DNA of 31,485 nt. It comes from a virus. The stretch lies in the IMG/VR virus record IMGVR_UViG_3300044974_000581, positions 1-31,485 of that record. One strand, 5' to 3'. Shown here one piece after another: positions 5,034 through 30,209 of this stretch; within the stretch, counting starts at the first letter, position 1, and each line of letters begins with the position of its first letter. Below the pieces are notes generated by a model, which saw nothing but the letters and a program-made list of their open reading frames with translations, ran no database searches and had not been told where the DNA came from. The position numbers were made by a program, and so were the translations under genes.

Positions 5034-5459
5034 TTATCCAAGAATACGCAGAGCAATATCGTTGATATCGTCCTCATTAGGTCCGGCAGGGTCGATATTT
5101 CCGCTTCGTGTTTTGCGGCTACGTGGAGTCAGCATCAGCACAGTAAACGTAGATCGCAACTGACTCTCCGCATTGCGCAGCTCTCCCCAGAGTGGGTGCA
5201 TGCGTTGTACGCCACGCTCATCAGGCGTAGTGAAAGGTTCGTTGGCTGCTGCCAGTCGCATCGCCTCCACGCGGGCAAGCTGGTGCGCTGCCATGATGAG
5301 CACCTCGGCGTCTGCGGCTGCGACTCCCGTGCCCGACGATTGATGGATGCGATTGCATAGACGGATCCAGCACTTGCGCACCTCCACCGGCAATCCTCTC
5401 GGTGGAGTCTGCGACATCGCGATGGTCTCGTTCTTGTTCGGTTTCCTGCCGCGTGGCAT
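5034..5459 (-). CDS. Terminase small subunit (P27-like)
   Basis: 141 residues. It recognises viral DNA and hands it to the large subunit. The basic MPRGRKPNKNE start, a central helical region, HPLWGELRNAESQLRS and the closing LMLTPRSRKT motif fit the P27/Terminase_4 family. The frame could start at 5477, but the ATG at 5459 has a GAGGG site eight bases upstream and gives the family-like N-terminus. It sits directly before the large terminase. Its ribosome site and first 239 bases lie inside the 3' end of the preceding GIY-YIG frame, an unusually deep overlap for this compact genome. Confidence 0.88.
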   Translation of the reverse strand: MPRGRKPNKNETIAMSQTPPRGLPVEVRKCWIRLCNRIHQSSGTGVAAADAEVLIMAAHQLARVEAMRLAAANEPFTTPDERGVQRMHPLWGELRNAESQLRSTFTVLMLTPRSRKTRSGNIDPAGPNEDDINDIALRILG

Positions 5460-6363
5460 GATATTTACCCTCATCAATGCCTAGATAGTCGAACAACTCC
5501 CTGAGAGTAGATACGTCTAGGTCTACAGTCTGCCATGCCTCAGTATACCCATCGAAACGACCCATAAAAGCCTGATCGCCACGCGGGATAAGCTTGACAT
5601 CTAGCTCATGCTTGATACGCAGCTCAAGCTGATGCGCTGCCTCACCATCCATTGGACCGATCATGTCTAGTTGTGTCCAGCCACTATAACCATGGCGTCT
5701 CAGTCTTATGCCAGTGCCATTTACAGTGTTGGTAATGCCAATCTTTAATTGTCCTGGGCGGGTTATTAAATACACCCATCCAAGCTCGTTACGCCTGAAA
5801 GATCCTTTGGTGCAATTTGGGCAGCCAGTACGGCACTGCGCTCTATTTTTAATGGATGACCAATACATAGTCGGGCAATTTGGGCATTGCCATAAAACTT
5901 GCAAACGACTTTCTTGACTAATAGTCGATGGATTTGGGAAACCAAATACTGCAAGCGCAGCCAAATCAGGGCGAGTTTGACTTAATGGTTTAAATAATTT
6001 GCCTTTATATTTTCTGGCATTCTGCATTCTTGCACAAGATGGACATGTTTTCGATCCATTTCTTGTGCGCCAATGAATTTTAGTTTTCCATTCATTGCCA
6101 CAACTACAACGCCACGTTGCCATAAACATGCTGCCAGCAAGTAATACTTTTGGATCGCCAACAATCATTTGAGCAGCTAATTCAGGATGAGTTTGTGCTA
6201 ATGGCAACTTACCTCCCCATGGTGTCTCCGCAGTTTTTGTAAATCCAAGTCTTTTAAATTGAGCTATATGTTTTGCACAAAAACCTTTTTCCGCATGCTT
6301 GCCAATACATCCTTCAACATTGCATATCTTGGCAACTTTAAAATATTTTTCTCTAACCAACAT
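5221..6363 (-). CDS. Zinc-ribbon and GIY-YIG endonuclease, probably a mobile (homing-type) gene
   Basis: About 380 residues. From the ATG at 6363 there is a CNVEGC...FCAKH finger near the start, then CSCG...CPSC and CPNC...CPNC zinc ribbons of the treble-clef/DUF4379 sort. The GIY-YIG-like catalytic core follows: GWVYLITRPGQLKIGITN with Arg pairs after it, closest to the T5orf172/MUG113 branch. Such proteins bind and cut DNA and often spread as free-standing homing endonucleases (family knowledge). The gene is visibly richer in A/T than its neighbours and is preceded by a 97-base gap, both signs of insertion. After the GIY-YIG part the frame runs on for ~80 codons over the small terminase gene. 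That stretch is Arg/Ser/Gly-rich and may be a passive read-on rather than a domain. A frame start at 6378 would need TTG; the ATG at 6363 has a GAGG site. Confidence 0.82.
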   Translation of the reverse strand: MLVREKYFKVAKICNVEGCIGKHAEKGFCAKHIAQFKRLGFTKTAETPWGGKLPLAQTHPELAAQMIVGDPKVLLAGSMFMATWRCSCGNEWKTKIHWRTRNGSKTCPSCARMQNARKYKGKLFKPLSQTRPDLAALAVFGFPNPSTISQESRLQVLWQCPNCPTMYWSSIKNRAQCRTGCPNCTKGSFRRNELGWVYLITRPGQLKIGITNTVNGTGIRLRRHGYSGWTQLDMIGPMDGEAAHQLELRIKHELDVKLIPRGDQAFMGRFDGYTEAWQTVDLDVSTLRELFDYLGIDEGKYHATRQETEQERDHRDVADSTERIAGGGAQVLDPSMQSHPSIVGHGSRSRRRRGAHHGSAPACPRGGDATGSSQRTFHYA

Positions 6364-6378
6364 GTGATCCGACCTCAA

Positions 6379-8257: not shown

Positions 8258-8584
8258 CTAGTAAAGATTGACTATTGATGTTGCAGTCGTCGATGTGCTG
8301 CGTACGTGAGTCACGCGGATAGGTAGCACTGTGCCAGCGGGGACAGCGACAAAGGTCACATTGCCTCCACCCTGCATCGTAACCGATAGATTGCCTGCGC
8401 CACCGACATACAGTGCGCGGCTGACGTAGGTCACGGGTACAGTGTCACTCGGCGTCACTGCCAAGGCGTCGTTTGCTGGGCTAGTCATACCCTCGATGAG
8501 CAGCATCTGCTGATCGATAGCACCTGCGGTCGTGGTCGTGGTCGTGGTTGTTGTCGGCGCTGCTGTGGTCGTGGTTGTGGACAT
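8258..8584 (-). CDS. Spike-base-like virion protein with an N-terminal poly-threonine tag
   Basis: 108 residues. Residues 1-~21 are almost only Thr with an Ala-Ala-Pro break (TTTTTAAPTTTTTTTTT). The rest (ALAVTPSDTVPVTYVSRALYVGGAGN, VTFVAVPAGTVLPIRVTHV, TATSIVNLY) matches what I know of the small spike-base protein family described from gene-transfer-agent and phage particles (RCAP_Rcc01079 type). These form beta-rich assemblies on heads. The Thr tract looks like a mucin-type O-glycosylation tag; the same kind of tract occurs in three other virion proteins here. Ribosome site AGGAGGATCAC precedes the ATG. Confidence 0.75.
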   Translation of the reverse strand: MSTTTTTAAPTTTTTTTTTAGAIDQQMLLIEGMTSPANDALAVTPSDTVPVTYVSRALYVGGAGNLSVTMQGGGNVTFVAVPAGTVLPIRVTHVRSTSTTATSIVNLY

Positions 8585-17296: not shown

Positions 17297-17424
17297 TGGA
17301 TGAGCGATCACCACCGACTCAATACGATGAGACGCTTGCATGGTTTGGCGCTGGCCTTCTGACGGCAGCGCTTGGCTGGACGCTGTATTGGTCGCTCTGG
17401 CTCCTGCGTGAGATCCTAGGCTGA
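17293..17424 (+). CDS. 43-residue single-pass membrane protein
   Basis: MMDERSPPTQYDETLAWFGA, then a membrane helix rich in Trp/Leu (GLLTAALGWTLYWSLWLLREILG). The start overlaps the stop of the secreted protein (ATGA). It is the last plus-strand gene, and its end overlaps the end of the opposed methyltransferase gene by nine bases. Role unknown; small membrane proteins of this kind can be holin- or exclusion-like. Confidence 0.6.
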   Translation: MMDERSPPTQYDETLAWFGAGLLTAALGWTLYWSLWLLREILG

Positions 17425-18003
17425 TCTGCGCAGGATTGTGAGCCCGTTGTTGTGCGGGTGATCTAGCACGATGCGCCAGTCGGGCATGCTATCGACAAAC
17501 TCCGTGAGCGCTAATCGTAGACCACGCTTAGCGCTCATTTTGCCCCATCGTAGAGCTGAGCTCGATGCGTGAGGGTACGCTGGCTCATCGATGTAGCCAA
17601 ACGTGTAGGTATCGTGCAGGATAATGTGCCCATTATTTCTTACACGCGGCGAGTGGAGCTGTAGCTCTGCGCAGAGCTGGCTGTACGTGTGCCACGTGTC
17701 GATCAGCAGGCAATCGGTCTCCTCGATGTCTGCCTCAATCACATCGAGCTGCTTAAACTCAAAATCGATATGCTCATCAGCCGCGATGCGGGCATGCTCG
17801 CTCATGTCGATCGGCAGGATGTCGTAGCAGACAAGTCGTTTTGGTCTCGCAGACAATAGGGCCCAGGTGGACACGCCACCGCGTACGCCCATCTCGGTGA
17901 CGTGCTGGTAGCCAGCAGCGTGCGAGCGGATTGTCTCAAGATGCTCTGAGATGTCACTGGGTCGATTGAGCGCATCGAGAAATGCTTGGTCTAGCGTGCG
18001 CAT
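17416..18003 (-). CDS. Class I SAM-dependent methyltransferase
   Basis: 195 residues. The SAM-binding motif is VTEMGVRGGVSTWALLSA (35-52), followed by the acidic strand end LVCYDILP (57-64), then DCLLIDTWHTYSQLCAELQ (97-115) and GHIILHDT (125-132). This pattern is typical of Methyltransf_24-type enzymes that often modify sugars. The longer frame to 18153 lies in the glycosyltransferase gene; the ATG at 18003 has CGGAG eight bases before it. It overlaps the glycosyltransferase by 13 bases, suggesting that the pair act together, for instance to methylate an added sugar (inference). Last gene of the minus-strand unit. Confidence 0.83.
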   Translation of the reverse strand: MRTLDQAFLDALNRPSDISEHLETIRSHAAGYQHVTEMGVRGGVSTWALLSARPKRLVCYDILPIDMSEHARIAADEHIDFEFKQLDVIEADIEETDCLLIDTWHTYSQLCAELQLHSPRVRNNGHIILHDTYTFGYIDEPAYPHASSSALRWGKMSAKRGLRLALTEFVDSMPDWRIVLDHPHNNGLTILRRSA

Positions 18004-18707
18004 GGGAGATACTCCGTGTACTCGTACGGCCAGTGTGGCACCAGCTCGACGATGCCGCGTGTCGTGTTGTGCTGTCTCAGATGATTGGCAGCCATCTCGC
18101 TCACTATGTTGGTGCTCCAGCCTGATGCGTGGTAGCCACCCGACGTGCCCCAACGATAAATGTAGAACCTATCCTTGTCTTCGATCTCCTGCGTGATGGT
18201 GCCGTATTTCTTGCGCAACTCGTCAAATAGCAGAACGTCTATTGATCCGCTATCTCTCACCTCGCTGTATCTGCCGATTGAGTCAAACACCTCACGACTC
18301 ATCATCAGGTTGCAATGGTACAGATTGCGTGACGGCGTGAGCTTGTGCGTGTCTTCCTCGAACCACGCACTAGCCGTGTGGTAGATGCGATTACTGTCGA
18401 GATGCTCGACGCTGTAGCTCAGTCGCCACGGCAAATAGATGTCATCATCTTCCCAGATCGCTAATAGGTCGCCGGTGGCCAGCGATGCGGTCTGGTTGAA
18501 CTTAGCGCCGAGCGGCCGAATCTGATCTGCCACGTTGTAGATCTTGACCTGCGGGTCAGCGAATACCAGCGTCTGCTCGCCGTAGTCATTGAGAATTATG
18601 AGCTCTTTCTCGCCCTGATAATCCTGCCGTAGAAACGACTCGATAGCATGCTCGAGCTGGCGAGGCCTGCCATATGTCGGGCATAGACACGAGATCTTTG
18701 GCAGCAT
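17991..18707 (-). CDS. Family 2 glycosyltransferase
   Basis: 238 residues. It has the GT-A start PKISCLCPTYGRPRQLEHAI, the ELIILNDYG strand and a metal-binding EDDD (86-89) in LAIWEDDDIYLPWR. The acceptor half has YHCNLMMSREVFDSIGRY. It transfers a sugar from a nucleotide-sugar donor; the acceptor is not visible from sequence. Its place between the HNH and methyltransferase genes, at the end of the late unit, fits modification of virion proteins or of host surface. Confidence 0.88.
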   Translation of the reverse strand: MLPKISCLCPTYGRPRQLEHAIESFLRQDYQGEKELIILNDYGEQTLVFADPQVKIYNVADQIRPLGAKFNQTASLATGDLLAIWEDDDIYLPWRLSYSVEHLDSNRIYHTASAWFEEDTHKLTPSRNLYHCNLMMSREVFDSIGRYSEVRDSGSIDVLLFDELRKKYGTITQEIEDKDRFYIYRWGTSGGYHASGWSTNIVSEMAANHLRQHNTTRGIVELVPHWPYEYTEYLPCAR

Positions 18708-21183: not shown

Positions 21184-22053
21184 CTAGTCGTGAGTTTTGA
21201 CGGCTGGCACATGGTCGTACCGACCGTCGAATATTTGCGGGTAGATCTCGAGCACCTGCATTTCAACCTCAAGCCGCTGAGCTTGAGGTAGCTTACGTCC
21301 AAAATACTCTCTAAATTGGCTGATATTCCACCCCATCTCGTATGCGCCGATGAGATAATTTCTCAGCTTGTCGTTGAGCGTCAATGAGTAAGGCACGGCA
21401 CCAAATCTCGGGAAACGATGGCACCATCCAAGCCATGGCTGGTACAGCACCTTTCCACCGTAGAGACGCACTTTGTCGTGAATGTAAACCTCTTCGCCAG
21501 CGAATCCGCGGAAATGCTGCGAGAACTTTGGCCAGTCGGATCGACGCATAAACGACAGAGCGCTGCCATGGGCGTGCACTTCGCGCGTCTCGCTGACCGG
21601 GTAGCGACTATCGACTAGCCACGTGCCAAAAAAGTCGCCGCGTAACTCGGGGCTCAGCTCGGTGGCGATGATATTGCCTGCCTCACTGCGCAATGGCCCG
21701 ACCCACATATCACGACCGACTGCATCGGCGCGGGCAGCAGCTACAAGCGCCTCTACCGCTCCAGGCACAAGCAGCACATGGCAGTCGATGACGAGGACGT
21801 GAGAGCCCTGCGCATGCTCCCACACGGAGTTTTTGGCGTGCGCTGGTCCCATGGCTTTGGGCGCATGAACGTATCGAGCTCTTGAATTACTGCAGACGTG
21901 ATGAATGTCGCCACGATTAGGCTCGGGGTGATCATCGACGACCAGCAGCTCCACACCGTCGAGCTGGTGGTGCATGCGCAGAGAGGATAGGGTCCACCAG
22001 ACGCCCTGCGGGTCGTCATAGGTTGCCATGCCAATCGTCAAGTCAATTCGCAT
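21184..22053 (-). CDS. Family 2 glycosyltransferase
   Basis: 289 residues. The GT-A start is MRIDLTIGMATYDDPQGVWWT, then VELLVVDDHPEP, HVLVIDCHVLLVPGAV (a D-x-H metal-site variant), FAGEEVYIHDKVRLYGGK and PWLGWCHRF. A frame start at 22077 exists, but the family begins at MRIDLTIG; neither start has a strong ribosome site. The gene overlaps the Cys-rich gene before it. It comes directly after the long Cys/Thr-rich fibre gene, so the fibre is a natural acceptor (inference). Confidence 0.85.
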   Translation of the reverse strand: MRIDLTIGMATYDDPQGVWWTLSSLRMHHQLDGVELLVVDDHPEPNRGDIHHVCSNSRARYVHAPKAMGPAHAKNSVWEHAQGSHVLVIDCHVLLVPGAVEALVAAARADAVGRDMWVGPLRSEAGNIIATELSPELRGDFFGTWLVDSRYPVSETREVHAHGSALSFMRRSDWPKFSQHFRGFAGEEVYIHDKVRLYGGKVLYQPWLGWCHRFPRFGAVPYSLTLNDKLRNYLIGAYEMGWNISQFREYFGRKLPQAQRLEVEMQVLEIYPQIFDGRYDHVPAVKTHD

Positions 22054-22428: not shown

Positions 22429-24327
22429 TCACTCCGTGATCGTGTAGTAGATCAATCCATCGGTTGCGCCGTAGTTAAACGTGTAGACTTCGCCAGCCGA
22501 ATAAGCAAAAAAGGATACAAATTCTGCCACAGTAAAACTGCCCGTATAACTCACTGGGGTGCACGAGTCAAAAACACAATTGCCCGCTAGTGGATAAGGA
22601 TCAAATGGGTTTGTATAGCCGCACCTTTGAGCAAACAACGCCATCGTTTGAACGCTGCACATAGTGCCGATGGCTCCATTTGCTCCTGATCGCATGTAGG
22701 TGCCAATTCCTGCGAACACGCCAAACTCTGTAGCCTTCTTGCTAATTGTTTCAGTGCCACAAGTGCAGTTATTATAAATAGGCGTTACTGCGTAGCTGTC
22801 TGTTGTTCTGACACGGTAGCCATATCCGTAACTTTTTGGCCACAAATCAAAATAGGTTATCCACAATGTTTTTGCAACGCCAGCAGACGTGCCGTGATAT
22901 CCGGACACTCCACCACATGCGGTGTCGCATCTAAATCTAATAGGATCGCCCGATGTCGAATTAAATAGGCTAGGTGCGCATGTTGGCACCTCGACCATAG
23001 CGGCTAGACTATATGCAGCCCTGGCAAGACTGCTCCGTTCAGGCCTGATTAGCGTCAGCGTCACTCCATCCATGCAGGGCCATACACCATCGTCGTCGTG
23101 GAATGTCACTGTCAGAGTATTAGGCCTTCGCTTGGCCACGCCACTATCATCGCACCACCACCTATCGGCGCAGCCGCAATTGGTGCAATCGATTTTCCCA
23201 CAGTTGGTTGTGGTAATTTCGTTGTCTGTTGCGCCAGCGGTTGTCGGGTAGATACATGAGCACTTGCGCAAAAAGAAATTACTGCCAATTTGCACACTTG
23301 ACAGGCACTTGTTTGCATCCCTATAGCTGCCAGATGCTCCATATGGTATCCATTGTTCGCTGACTGATGACCATCGCCAAGTACATGTGCCAGTGCATGG
23401 TGGCTCGGTAGATGTCGTCGTAGTGACTTGTGGATAGCTTGTCTCGCCACATGGACCGTACATGCGCCATTGAGTCGGTCCACCAAACGCATAAAATGGC
23501 TGATTAGGCAAATTACAATTACATACACCTATGCAGTCGTTTTTGATAATTGTTGAATATGTCAACCCGTCATTGTAATACACATTCCGTATGCAGCATC
23601 TGCCCGCGCATGGAGTTGTCGTTGTTGTCGTCGTGCTAGTCGTCGTACTGGTTGTTGTGCCAGTACCTGTCGTTGTCGTGGTCGTCGATGGCGTCGTTGT
23701 GGTTGTCGTTGTTGGTGGCGTGCTCTGACAGCTAGCGCTCACGTACTCATTGACAAATGCCCCTGCTCTGGCAGGCGGCGATCCACAGTAGCACCCGTCT
23801 GGACATGCGACAGCGCTAACCCATGCACTGCCATTCCATCGATAAATACATGTTTGGAATGTGCATCCACTCGGTGTGCTGCTGGTGGTCGTGGTCGATG
23901 TGCCGACGCATGATGTCGTGGCAGTCTCGCCCTCGGTTGTGCCATCATATGAGGGACTTGCGCAGGTACATCCCTCGAGGCAAATAGCCACCGAGACCCA
24001 CATGCCGGACATCCACACGTAGCTACATCCAGAGTTCTCGCATGTCGGCGTGGTGGTCGTGCTGGTCGTGGTTGGCTGGACAGAGTCCCGGCAGCTCTCG
24101 ACTGCTACTGCGCCCTCAATGCCAGGAGTCGAGGGCACCCAGCAGAAACACCCTGCGCCACAGTTGCCGGAGACAAGCAACCATGAGCCCATAGTCCAGA
24201 TGTAGATACACGAGTCAGGACACGGAGTTGTTGATGTTGTCGTGGTCGTGCTGGTAGTCGTGCTCGAGGTTGTCGATGACGAGCTACTACTCGACGTGCT
24301 CGAGGTCGTTGGCGGCATTGTGCTCAT
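22429..24327 (-). CDS. Modular Cys-rich, Thr/Ser-rich tail fibre or adhesin
   Basis: 632 residues. A Ser/Thr N-terminus (SSSSSSSTTSSTTTSTTTTTSTT) is followed by five Cys-rich modules joined by Thr tracts up to ~35 residues. Modules 1-3 share C-x(3-4)-C-x-Y-x-W-x(4-5)-W-x(5)-C-x2-GC-x-C-x(2-3)-P and a closing Cys ~20 residues on; 4 and 5 are looser copies. A CTNCGCADRWWCD-type piece starts the ~250-residue C-terminal domain, which is Cys-rich, aromatic and more AT-rich in DNA. It lies after the distal-tail genes, so a receptor-binding fibre is likely. The Thr tracts look like mucin-type stalks open to glycosylation. The ATG overlaps the previous stop (TAATG). Confidence 0.82.
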   Translation of the reverse strand: MSTMPPTTSSTSSSSSSSTTSSTTTSTTTTTSTTPCPDSCIYIWTMGSWLLVSGNCGAGCFCWVPSTPGIEGAVAVESCRDSVQPTTTSTTTTPTCENSGCSYVWMSGMWVSVAICLEGCTCASPSYDGTTEGETATTSCVGTSTTTTSSTPSGCTFQTCIYRWNGSAWVSAVACPDGCYCGSPPARAGAFVNEYVSASCQSTPPTTTTTTTPSTTTTTTGTGTTTSTTTSTTTTTTTPCAGRCCIRNVYYNDGLTYSTIIKNDCIGVCNCNLPNQPFYAFGGPTQWRMYGPCGETSYPQVTTTTSTEPPCTGTCTWRWSSVSEQWIPYGASGSYRDANKCLSSVQIGSNFFLRKCSCIYPTTAGATDNEITTTNCGKIDCTNCGCADRWWCDDSGVAKRRPNTLTVTFHDDDGVWPCMDGVTLTLIRPERSSLARAAYSLAAMVEVPTCAPSLFNSTSGDPIRFRCDTACGGVSGYHGTSAGVAKTLWITYFDLWPKSYGYGYRVRTTDSYAVTPIYNNCTCGTETISKKATEFGVFAGIGTYMRSGANGAIGTMCSVQTMALFAQRCGYTNPFDPYPLAGNCVFDSCTPVSYTGSFTVAEFVSFFAYSAGEVYTFNYGATDGLIYYTITE

Positions 24328-24860
24328 TATCCACCACCCGTCGAGGTCGTGCTAGTTGTCGTTGGTGCTGCTGTACTGGTCGTCGTAGTGGTCGTTGTAG
24401 TCGTGCATATATTCGCACCGGGAATACAGAGTGTCGTCCAGTTAGGCAGCATCTCGCCATCGACACATTGCAGGGATGTAACTACGTCGATCGACAGGAT
24501 TGTGCCACCACCACCACCAGACAAGATAACCATGTACACCGGATTGCCGTAGGTGTTTATGCCTGCATACCGACCTAGGTATCTTTGCACTGACGGCACA
24601 CCACCGTTGATATCCTTGATTTTGATATCGACATCGTCGGTCCACGTGTCGGTATCGGCAACGTAGGTCAGCAATTTACCCGGATAGTAGCCTGATGTTG
24701 GCGTTGTCGATGTGACACGCACCACATGCACGATTGGGTAACTTGGCCCGGATCGAGGCATGACGTTGCGGTCACGATTGCCAAGATTGCCCGCCTCATA
24801 GTCACGCAGGAGCGTGGCGAGGCGCGCGATTGATTGGTCGTCTAGGAGATAGCCAGCCAT
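24327..24860 (-). CDS. Tail protein with a C-terminal poly-Thr tail
   Basis: 177 residues. The first ~150 residues begin MAGYLLDDQSIARLATLLRD (a helix) and continue beta-rich (HVVRVTSTTPTSGYYPGKLLTYVADTDTW; VPSVQRYLGRYAGINTYGNPVYMV; GGGGGT). The last ~28 residues are TTTTTTTTTSTAAPTTTSTTSTGGG. It has the look of a small virion protein that displays or links to the next, Thr-rich fibre. An AGGAGGCCCG ribosome site precedes the ATG. Family not known to me by name. Confidence 0.72.
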   Translation of the reverse strand: MAGYLLDDQSIARLATLLRDYEAGNLGNRDRNVMPRSGPSYPIVHVVRVTSTTPTSGYYPGKLLTYVADTDTWTDDVDIKIKDINGGVPSVQRYLGRYAGINTYGNPVYMVILSGGGGGTILSIDVVTSLQCVDGEMLPNWTTLCIPGANICTTTTTTTTTSTAAPTTTSTTSTGGG

Positions 24861-29212: not shown

Positions 29213-29799
29213 ACATCACCTGCGTCTGGTGTGATTTTGCCCTTGGCAATCAGATTGTCTAAAGACATTTGCAAGTATTCGACTGTTATCGATGATACCG
29301 TGGAAAGGCCAGAATCTAGGGCAGGGCGCAGAAATGGCTTGGCGCTAACCCTTATTCGCTTATTGCTGGCCCAAATTTTGGCATTAAAGCCTTTTTCGAC
29401 TAAGTGCGCGTATTTTGTCGGTTTCGCTTCAACCATGACATTACGCTGCGCTACTTTTGATTTTGACGGCTTGAAATATGCGATAAAAACTTTGGCCACA
29501 GTGCCTTTTTTGGGACCGACTATCGCAGTGACTATGCCTTTTTTTGTTGTGATAACCTTTACGGCGATGCTTTTTTTCAGGGCTAAACTTGCGCCGTACA
29601 TGCGCACAAGCTGATCTCCTACGCGTATCACCGCTTTGCGACTGGGTGCTTTGGCCCTAGCGATTTTTGCGACCTGTCCACCAATTTTGCGAGCAGCTCG
29701 GCGAAACGCGGTACGTATTACGATCGGGAATTTGGCGAGCCGATCCATCAGGTCATTCAATCCTACAATTTGAAACTGTTCTTCCATTGAAAATGCCAT
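29209..29799 (-). CDS. HK97 gp10-like head-tail joining protein
   Basis: 196 residues from the ATG at 29799 (GGAGG six bases before; a GTG at 29802 is possible). FQIVGLNDLMDRLAKFP, then a helix (RTAFRRAARKIGGQVAKIARAKAP), and the family signature PTKYAHLVEKGF with KPFLRPALDS near the end. It is very rich in Lys and more AT-rich than its neighbours. Family members help join head and tail. Position after the adaptor gene is canonical. Confidence 0.87.
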   Translation of the reverse strand: MAFSMEEQFQIVGLNDLMDRLAKFPIVIRTAFRRAARKIGGQVAKIARAKAPSRKAVIRVGDQLVRMYGASLALKKSIAVKVITTKKGIVTAIVGPKKGTVAKVFIAYFKPSKSKVAQRNVMVEAKPTKYAHLVEKGFNAKIWASNKRIRVSAKPFLRPALDSGLSTVSSITVEYLQMSLDNLIAKGKITPDAGDV

Positions 29800-30209
29800 C
29801 ACGCACCTCCAGTCGTGGTGGTGGTGGTCGTCGTAGGTGCTGCCGTTGTTGTCGTGCTGGTCGTGGTCGCTGGCGCATCTGACTCGACCTGCACAGCCGT
29901 GATCTTGAGGTGTTCATTGAGACCGTCAATGGTACTGATCCCAACGATGTTCAGCGTGATGTCTCCATAGATGACGCGATGGATCGGCAGCACATCGGTG
30001 CGGTATCTCATCGTGACCGTGTAGGTCGTGACTGATGACTGCATAAGAGCGCTCTGAGGCTCGCTGCCTGGAGTCGAGACAACGCTGGCCCATACCGTGG
30101 CGTAGGTTGCCCAAGTGCGAATAGCCTGCCCGTATGAGTCAATACTGTCGGTCGGCGCCTGAAGAGCCACACGACGGCGCAGATCGCCTACTACGGTGAC
30201 GTAGGGCAT
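29799..30209 (-). CDS. Head closure/head-tail adaptor protein with a C-terminal poly-Thr tail
   Basis: 136 residues. Residues 1-~108 match the SPP1 gp16-like adaptor family: VVGDLRRRVALQAPTDSIDSYGQ, WATYATVWASVVSTPGSE, VTMRYRTDVLPIHRVIYGDITLNIVGI. It closes the head after packaging and binds the tail. The last ~25 residues are APATTTSTTTTAAPTTTTTTTTGGA, not part of the family. This tag resembles those at 8258-8584 and 24327-24860. GGAGGGT ribosome site; TGATG overlap with the connector gene. Confidence 0.87.
   Translation of the reverse strand: MPYVTVVGDLRRRVALQAPTDSIDSYGQAIRTWATYATVWASVVSTPGSEPQSALMQSSVTTYTVTMRYRTDVLPIHRVIYGDITLNIVGISTIDGLNEHLKITAVQVESDAPATTTSTTTTAAPTTTTTTTTGGA

Follow-up and report, generated by a model that had tools for sequence, protein, structure and literature searches.

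Phage-encoded glycosyltransferases (GTs) acting on the virus particle have been described in mycobacteriophages. In Che8, Corndog and Myrna, such enzymes glycosylate capsid and tail-tube subunits of the phage that encodes them, reportedly at the C-termini (Freeman et al. 2023, via PMC12363180, PMC12619734). A change of the DxD motif to DxH is found in families GT27 and GT60, both of which carry out polypeptide Ser/Thr O-glycosylation, and in GT27 the metal is bound by a C-terminal His (PMC7185993). Here, we have analyzed a virus record of 31,485 bases (the window, that is, the whole stretch of DNA), which contains tailed-phage genes for a terminase-like protein, portal, head completion and tape measure, together with two GT genes (named GT1 and GT2 here) and a methyltransferase gene. 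On the basis of current results, it is likely (probability about 0.74) that this phage encodes a cassette for mucin-type-like O-glycosylation, directed at its own fibre and tail protein; enzymatic, mass or virion data are lacking.

Thr tracts on virion proteins and the fibre

The features are listed in Table 1. An initial annotation, made from the sequence alone, had claimed nearly pure Thr tracts on four virion proteins, lying outside the underlying protein families. The tracts, often combined with Ala-Ala-Pro, were confirmed on the spike-base protein, the Hc1 head-completion protein, the tail protein and the fibre, shifted by a few bases from the positions first given. The first fibre tract, which had been described as a Thr tract, was only partly so, being Ser-rich as well as Thr-rich. 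The location outside the families held for Hc1 and the spike base: the PF05521 match of Hc1 covers residues 8-106 and its tag residues 112-136, beyond the domain, and the domain match of the spike base covers residues 31-108 and its tag residues 2-22, before the domain. These tracts are shown directly by the translations. Since all four ACN codons were mixed in them and the longest run of one codon was 4, we concluded that the tracts are maintained at the protein level. DNA repeat or slippage could be ruled out as their origin, given the mixed codons and the absence of a TRF array there.

Table 1. Features of the window and of related loci discussed in the text
Feature	Position	Strand	Basis or remarks
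Spike-base protein	8258..8584	(-)	NF048002 E 1.9e-26; phrog_12296
Spike-base N-terminal Thr tag	8519..8581	(-)	STTTTTAAPTTTTTTTTTAGA
Methyltransferase	17416..18003	(-)	PF13578; overlaps GT2 end
GT2, second GT-A enzyme, EDDD motif	17991..18707	(-)	PF00535; family alignment; fold
GT1, 289 aa	21184..22053	(-)	PF00535; DxH motif (D90, H92), C-terminal His (H212)
Mucin-like fibre, 632 aa	22429..24327	(-)	Thr/Ser-rich tracts alternating with Cys/Trp modules
Fibre long Thr tract, 38 aa	23611..23724	(-)	
Fibre Cys/Trp module 3	23728..23865	(-)	
Fibre inter-module Thr/Ser tract	23866..23904	(-)	
Fibre Cys/Trp module 2	23908..24042	(-)	
Fibre inter-module Thr tract	24043..24075	(-)	
Fibre Cys/Trp module 1 (CPDSCIYIW..)	24091..24222	(-)	
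Fibre N-terminal Ser/Thr tract	24223..24315	(-)	
Tail protein, 177 aa	24327..24860	(-)	Orthologues with Thr-rich or (Gly-Ser)n tracts
Tail-protein C-terminal Thr tag	24330..24404	(-)	TTTTTTTTTSTAAPTTTSTTSTGGG
Hc1 head-completion protein	29799..30209	(-)	PF05521 E 1.1e-20; phrog_25
Hc1 C-terminal Thr tag	29802..29876	(-)	APATTTSTTTTAAPTTTTTTTTGGA
Thr-tag peptide sequences			TTTTTTTTTSTAAPTTTSTTST
PF11051 GT71-like enzymes	L175:14295-15818; L180:12995-14341; L191:14958-16490		
Pseudoalteromonas rubra PF11397/GT2-PqqD-oxygenase locus	L426:7047-10799 and L427		

Among distinct ORFs of the window's clade, the Thr tag was present on every tail protein (23/23), on 29/33 Hc1 proteins and on 13/16 spike-base proteins. 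The Hc1 tag was missing in three close lineages (L142/L143, L165 and L299), at least two of which, L143 and L165, retained GT1, so that a phage with GT1 can do without the Hc1 tag. An extra spike-base-like ORF, without a Thr tag, was observed in three records of the clade (L296, L297 and L300). Another ORF of the window (5221-6378, minus strand; 385 aa) contains DUF4379 treble-clef zinc motifs and overlaps the frame before the terminase.

No match to the fibre could be identified in Pfam, PHROG or NCBIfam, and the phage collection searched contained no isolated-phage relatives of either the fibre or GT1. The Cys/Trp module pattern was also found in mucin-like proteins of prophage-like loci in Planctomycetaceae. 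By inference, the fibre is the presumed main acceptor of glycosylation, and the fibre and the tail protein would be the best acceptor candidates. Modification of the Hc1 and spike-base tags as well is plausible, with less support.

The GT27-like enzyme and its partners

The presence of two GTs and a methyltransferase, as initially annotated, was confirmed by profile searches. GT1 and GT2 matched PF00535 with scores of 40.8 and 35.3 bits, respectively (curated cut-off 23.3), and the methyltransferase matched PF13578. The start of GT1 was set at 22053, where some relatives begin or upstream of which they have a stop codon. GT1 is a lone glycosyltransferase domain and the protein ends after it; no ricin-type lectin domain could be detected (no lectin family in the Pfam search). 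PF11397 (GT60) gave no match in 13 GT1-family members at E up to 1.

A template-free model of GT1 (pLDDT 79, pTM 0.81) was used for fold comparison. The 14 best Foldseek matches were all ppGalNAc-transferases (best 1.4e-12). In VIA-align, rows 1-27 were GalNAc-Ts (best Z 20.5, 268/289 residues) and the runner-up family was chondroitin polymerase (Z 17.9 over 203); WrtF and RmlT also ranked below the ppGalNAc-Ts. At the profile level, a 19-member profile of the GT1 family (A5) matched GT27 (hhalign 88%) with D90, H92, GEE and H212 in register, and the DxH motif and C-terminal His were in register with those of GALNT2. It should be noted that the GT27 alignment used in this comparison (A4) consisted of two sequences, the GALNT2 chain from PDB and a manually entered probe sequence. 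Profile A5 also reached GalNAc-T4 (E 1e-5, positions 22-233), which was outscored by several GT2-family enzymes over the first half; most matches to GTs other than GalNAc-Ts spanned only about the first 110-120 positions. Likewise, the first half of GT1 scored higher against bacterial GT2-family enzymes, for example, TarP. The residues D90, H92, E187, E188 and H212 were invariant in 19 GT1-family sequences, down to 28% identity.

GT27 was reached with 19 sequences in the profile, but not with 9 or 13 relatives. These early profiles, searched against PDB, had matched mainly the N-terminal halves of GT2-family enzymes, and the possibility that GT1 is an ordinary sugar-extending enzyme of that family was considered and rejected. 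The PF00535 match, motifs and fold are shown by these comparisons, and by fold and metal-binding motif GT1 groups with polypeptide Ser/Thr O-HexNAc transferases; its activity and donor are inferred. Because GT1 lacks a lectin domain and its first half is nearer to GT2-family enzymes, we term it GT27-like and do not place it in GT27.

The closest folds to GT2 were bacterial glycan transferases, namely SpsA, WrtF and heparosan synthase. A GT27-like nature of GT2 itself was ruled out, as no usable profile match was obtained and other folds ranked first. The start of the methyltransferase is internal, by inference, and its open frame extends to 18153; no match to this protein could be found in PDB.

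Linkage of tracts and transferases

HMM searches of the collected loci revealed that a Thr/Ser-rich fibre immediately precedes GT1, which lies downstream of it, in records of ~10 to 186 kb whose other genes differ. When the GT1 family was clustered at 80% identity, a Thr/Ser-rich ORF was found within 4 kb of GT1 in 21 of the 25 clusters, mostly as the gene just upstream, 0-730 bases away. After removal of ascertained or doubtful clusters (three found via the tag motif and one antisense case), such an ORF was near GT1 in 17/21 clusters, compared with Thr tracts in 2/154 five-kb control windows; in loci drawn by an arbitrary 15-mer, such tracts were rare as well (2/79). The control windows represent arbitrary phage DNA and not fibre neighbourhoods, and the sister phages described below are a better control. 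Four GT1 clusters had no tag near the member examined. L340, another member of one of them, has tags, and three large records among the clusters with tag-less neighbourhoods have Thr7 tracts elsewhere.

Many of these GT1 loci also contain GT2 and the methyltransferase. The three genes are contiguous in L228 and L264, and in both L233 and the window they are interrupted by what is presumed to be a lysis module. The methyltransferase and GT1 form one ORF in L280, L285/L286, L288, L431, L434, L435 and L437, they occupy opposite ends of an 826-aa protein in L108, and all three enzymes are combined in a single 1164-aa ORF in a Burkholderiales contig (L438:7887-11378). In total, the enzymes are fused in seven GT1 clusters, and because of these fusions one shared pathway for GT1, GT2 and the methyltransferase is suggested. 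Both the conserved neighbourhood and the fusions are shown by the loci themselves.

Two further observations concern these loci. In L108 (2108-4585), the middle region is unidentified and may be a further GT, and the end is methyltransferase-like. The apparent lysis module of the window contains a papain-family cysteine peptidase (PF00112; 19369-20265, minus strand), which lies next to a small membrane-like protein and another of 226 aa and is conserved in relatives and sister phages; a protease in place of a peptidoglycan lysin in a lysis module is odd.

We also examined how common such tags are. The motif T5AAPT5 was found in at least 120 stretches of the viral collection, in highly varied proteins and at C-terminal, internal or N-terminal positions. 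Among T5AAPT5 records of at least 15 kb, 16 of 50 contained PF00535 above the cut-off, compared with 2 of 41 controls (Fisher p 0.0009); for records of up to 60 kb only, the fractions were 6/32 and 1/37 (p 0.03). No PF00535 match was found in the other 34 of the 50 tagged records. Thus, a general association exists between tags and GTs, yet a Thr tag alone does not imply a PF00535 enzyme. One alternative is that the Thr tracts remain unmodified and serve as disordered linkers or as docking tails in assembly, the adjacency of GTs resulting from co-transfer of the tail-fibre module. The abundance of Thr tags in environmental phages and the absence of a PF00535 GT from most tagged records would agree with it. 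However, PF00535 is enriched in tagged records, and GT1 remains beside Thr/Ser-rich fibres across clusters down to ~30% identity, despite variable gene order and fusions; we therefore regard this alternative as unlikely.

Sister phages provided natural controls for the cassette reading. L175, L180 and L188, which are distant Hc1 relatives, have the synteny of tape measure, tail and C1-peptidase genes in common with the window, and they lack GT1 and any Thr7 tract. In a comparison set of 27 records, Thr7 tracts were present in all GT1-positive records (11/11) and in no GT1-negative one (0/16), although these counts are not phylogenetically independent. The orthologous tail protein of L175, L180/L177 and L191 bears a (Gly-Ser)n tract, which sits in the loop where the tail protein of the GT1-positive L230 has a Thr tract. 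In the same phages, the position of GT1 is occupied by a GT71-like PF11051 (Mannosyl_trans3) enzyme, which in L175 and L191 forms one protein with a methyltransferase. L188/L179 keep the PF11051 enzyme with a tail protein devoid of a tract. Hence, tag chemistry and transferase type mostly switch together in sister phages. Related phages with tags but never a GT, a pattern that would have counted against self-glycosylation, did not occur.

These data also bear on a second alternative, in which the GTs and the methyltransferase would alter the host surface (lipopolysaccharide, capsule or cell-wall glycan) against superinfection and the Thr tracts would be flexible linkers. Seroconversion is a frequent role of phage enzymes of the GT2 family, and the folds nearest to GT2 are, as noted above, bacterial glycan transferases. 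On the other hand, GT1 has the ppGalNAc-T fold and the DxH motif of polypeptide transferases, the cassette is located within the tail-fibre module, and sister phages change the tag type along with the GT type, which makes this explanation improbable.

A direct genome scan revealed no bacterial relatives of GT1; they were found instead via GT2, whose genome scan identified the cassette in Planctomycetaceae MAGs. L431 and L434 contain, in the order of the window, a tape-measure-like gene, a tail-like gene, a mucin-like gene (979 or 982 aa), a GT1-methyltransferase fusion and GT2, and in L431 the cassette is followed by ordinary chromosomal genes. The upstream genes of both were judged to be phage genes by position and appearance, without a family match. 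The fusion protein of L431 (6206-7999) has a DUF6171-like cysteine-rich C-terminus, as does that of L433. The host of the window phage itself was not identified, and a planctomycete host is plausible, by inference from relatives. A third explanation, that host enzymes glycosylate the tracts and the phage GTs have other targets, draws on the existence of general O-glycosylation systems in bacteria. It appears very unlikely, as the linkage and exchange pattern involves phage genes and the prophage-like loci have their own copy. A relative of GT2 in Pseudoalteromonas rubra carries PqqD and 2OG-Fe(II) oxygenase domains in the same protein, and a PF11397 GlcNAc transferase is encoded next to it. 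This arrangement recalls the Skp1 hydroxylation/glycosylation pathway. The locus is a further hint that the family of the window's GT2 acts alongside a polypeptide transferase.

Proposed pathway and comparison with known systems

According to the cassette reading, GT1 would transfer HexNAc from a UDP-sugar to Thr/Ser within the mucin-like stretches of fibre and tail protein; acceptor, donor sugar and linkage are all inferred. GT2 would add a further sugar to the first one, and the methyltransferase would cap the glycan by O-methylation, where both the order of the steps and the methylation of sugar rather than protein are inferences. The predicted outcome is a variable surface decoration of the tail fibre, stiff in the manner of a bottle brush and resistant to proteases, whose function and benefit for the particle are likewise inferred. 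Self-glycosylation of the particle, as proposed by the initial annotation, is supported by fold, motif, neighbourhood and the exchange of tag and GT, the last of which is shown by the sister phages; no chemistry has been shown, and the link is weaker for the Hc1 and spike-base tags than for the fibre and the tail protein.

A bolder reading would be a self-contained phage mucin-type system, with a GT27/GT60-like initiator, an extending GT and a capping methyltransferase, in which tag/transferase pairs are exchangeable (Thr-rich with GT27-like, (Gly-Ser)n with PF11051 GT71-like). This reading seems to us as likely to fail as to hold, and could bear on prokaryotic or viral roots of mucin-initiating enzymes. 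If the proposed cassette is real, phages would make mucin-like glycoprotein fibres by an enzyme design regarded as typical of mucin synthesis in animals and protists, Thr-rich tracts on phage tail proteins would have a reason, and small, soluble enzymes of phage origin would become available for O-glycosylation in E. coli. The tag/transferase exchange further points to co-evolution of acceptor and enzyme as one unit, with possible effects on adsorption, recognition and resistance to proteases.

Several known systems resemble the cassette in part. As in the mycobacteriophages, a phage-encoded GT is tied to virion-protein acceptors, in the window by genomic association only. However, the acceptors differ, and neither Thr-rich mucin-like tracts nor a GT27-like enzyme nor a fused methyltransferase is described for the mycobacteriophage system in PMC12363180 and PMC12619734. 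Eukaryotic GT27 mucin-type O-glycosylation has in common with GT1 the full-length catalytic fold, the DxH motif, the C-terminal His and, for the window, an adjacent Thr/Ser/Pro-rich presumed acceptor, whereas GT1 has no ricin-type lectin domain, is only 289 aa long and is encoded by a phage; GalNAc transfer by GT1 is inferred. The GT60/PF11397 enzymes (Skp1 GnT1 and protist mucin GlcNAc transferases) are similar in their DxH motif and polypeptide acceptors, and a PF11397 gene adjoins the GT2 relative in Pseudoalteromonas rubra, but GT1 itself has no PF11397 match. No earlier account of GTs together with polythreonine or mucin-like fibres in phages was found in the literature searched, most subscription papers being outside the search. 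Virion glycosylation by phage enzymes is already known in mycobacteriophages; what is new here is that phages carry a GT27-like enzyme, that it is tied to mucin-like fibres and that tag and transferase are exchanged.
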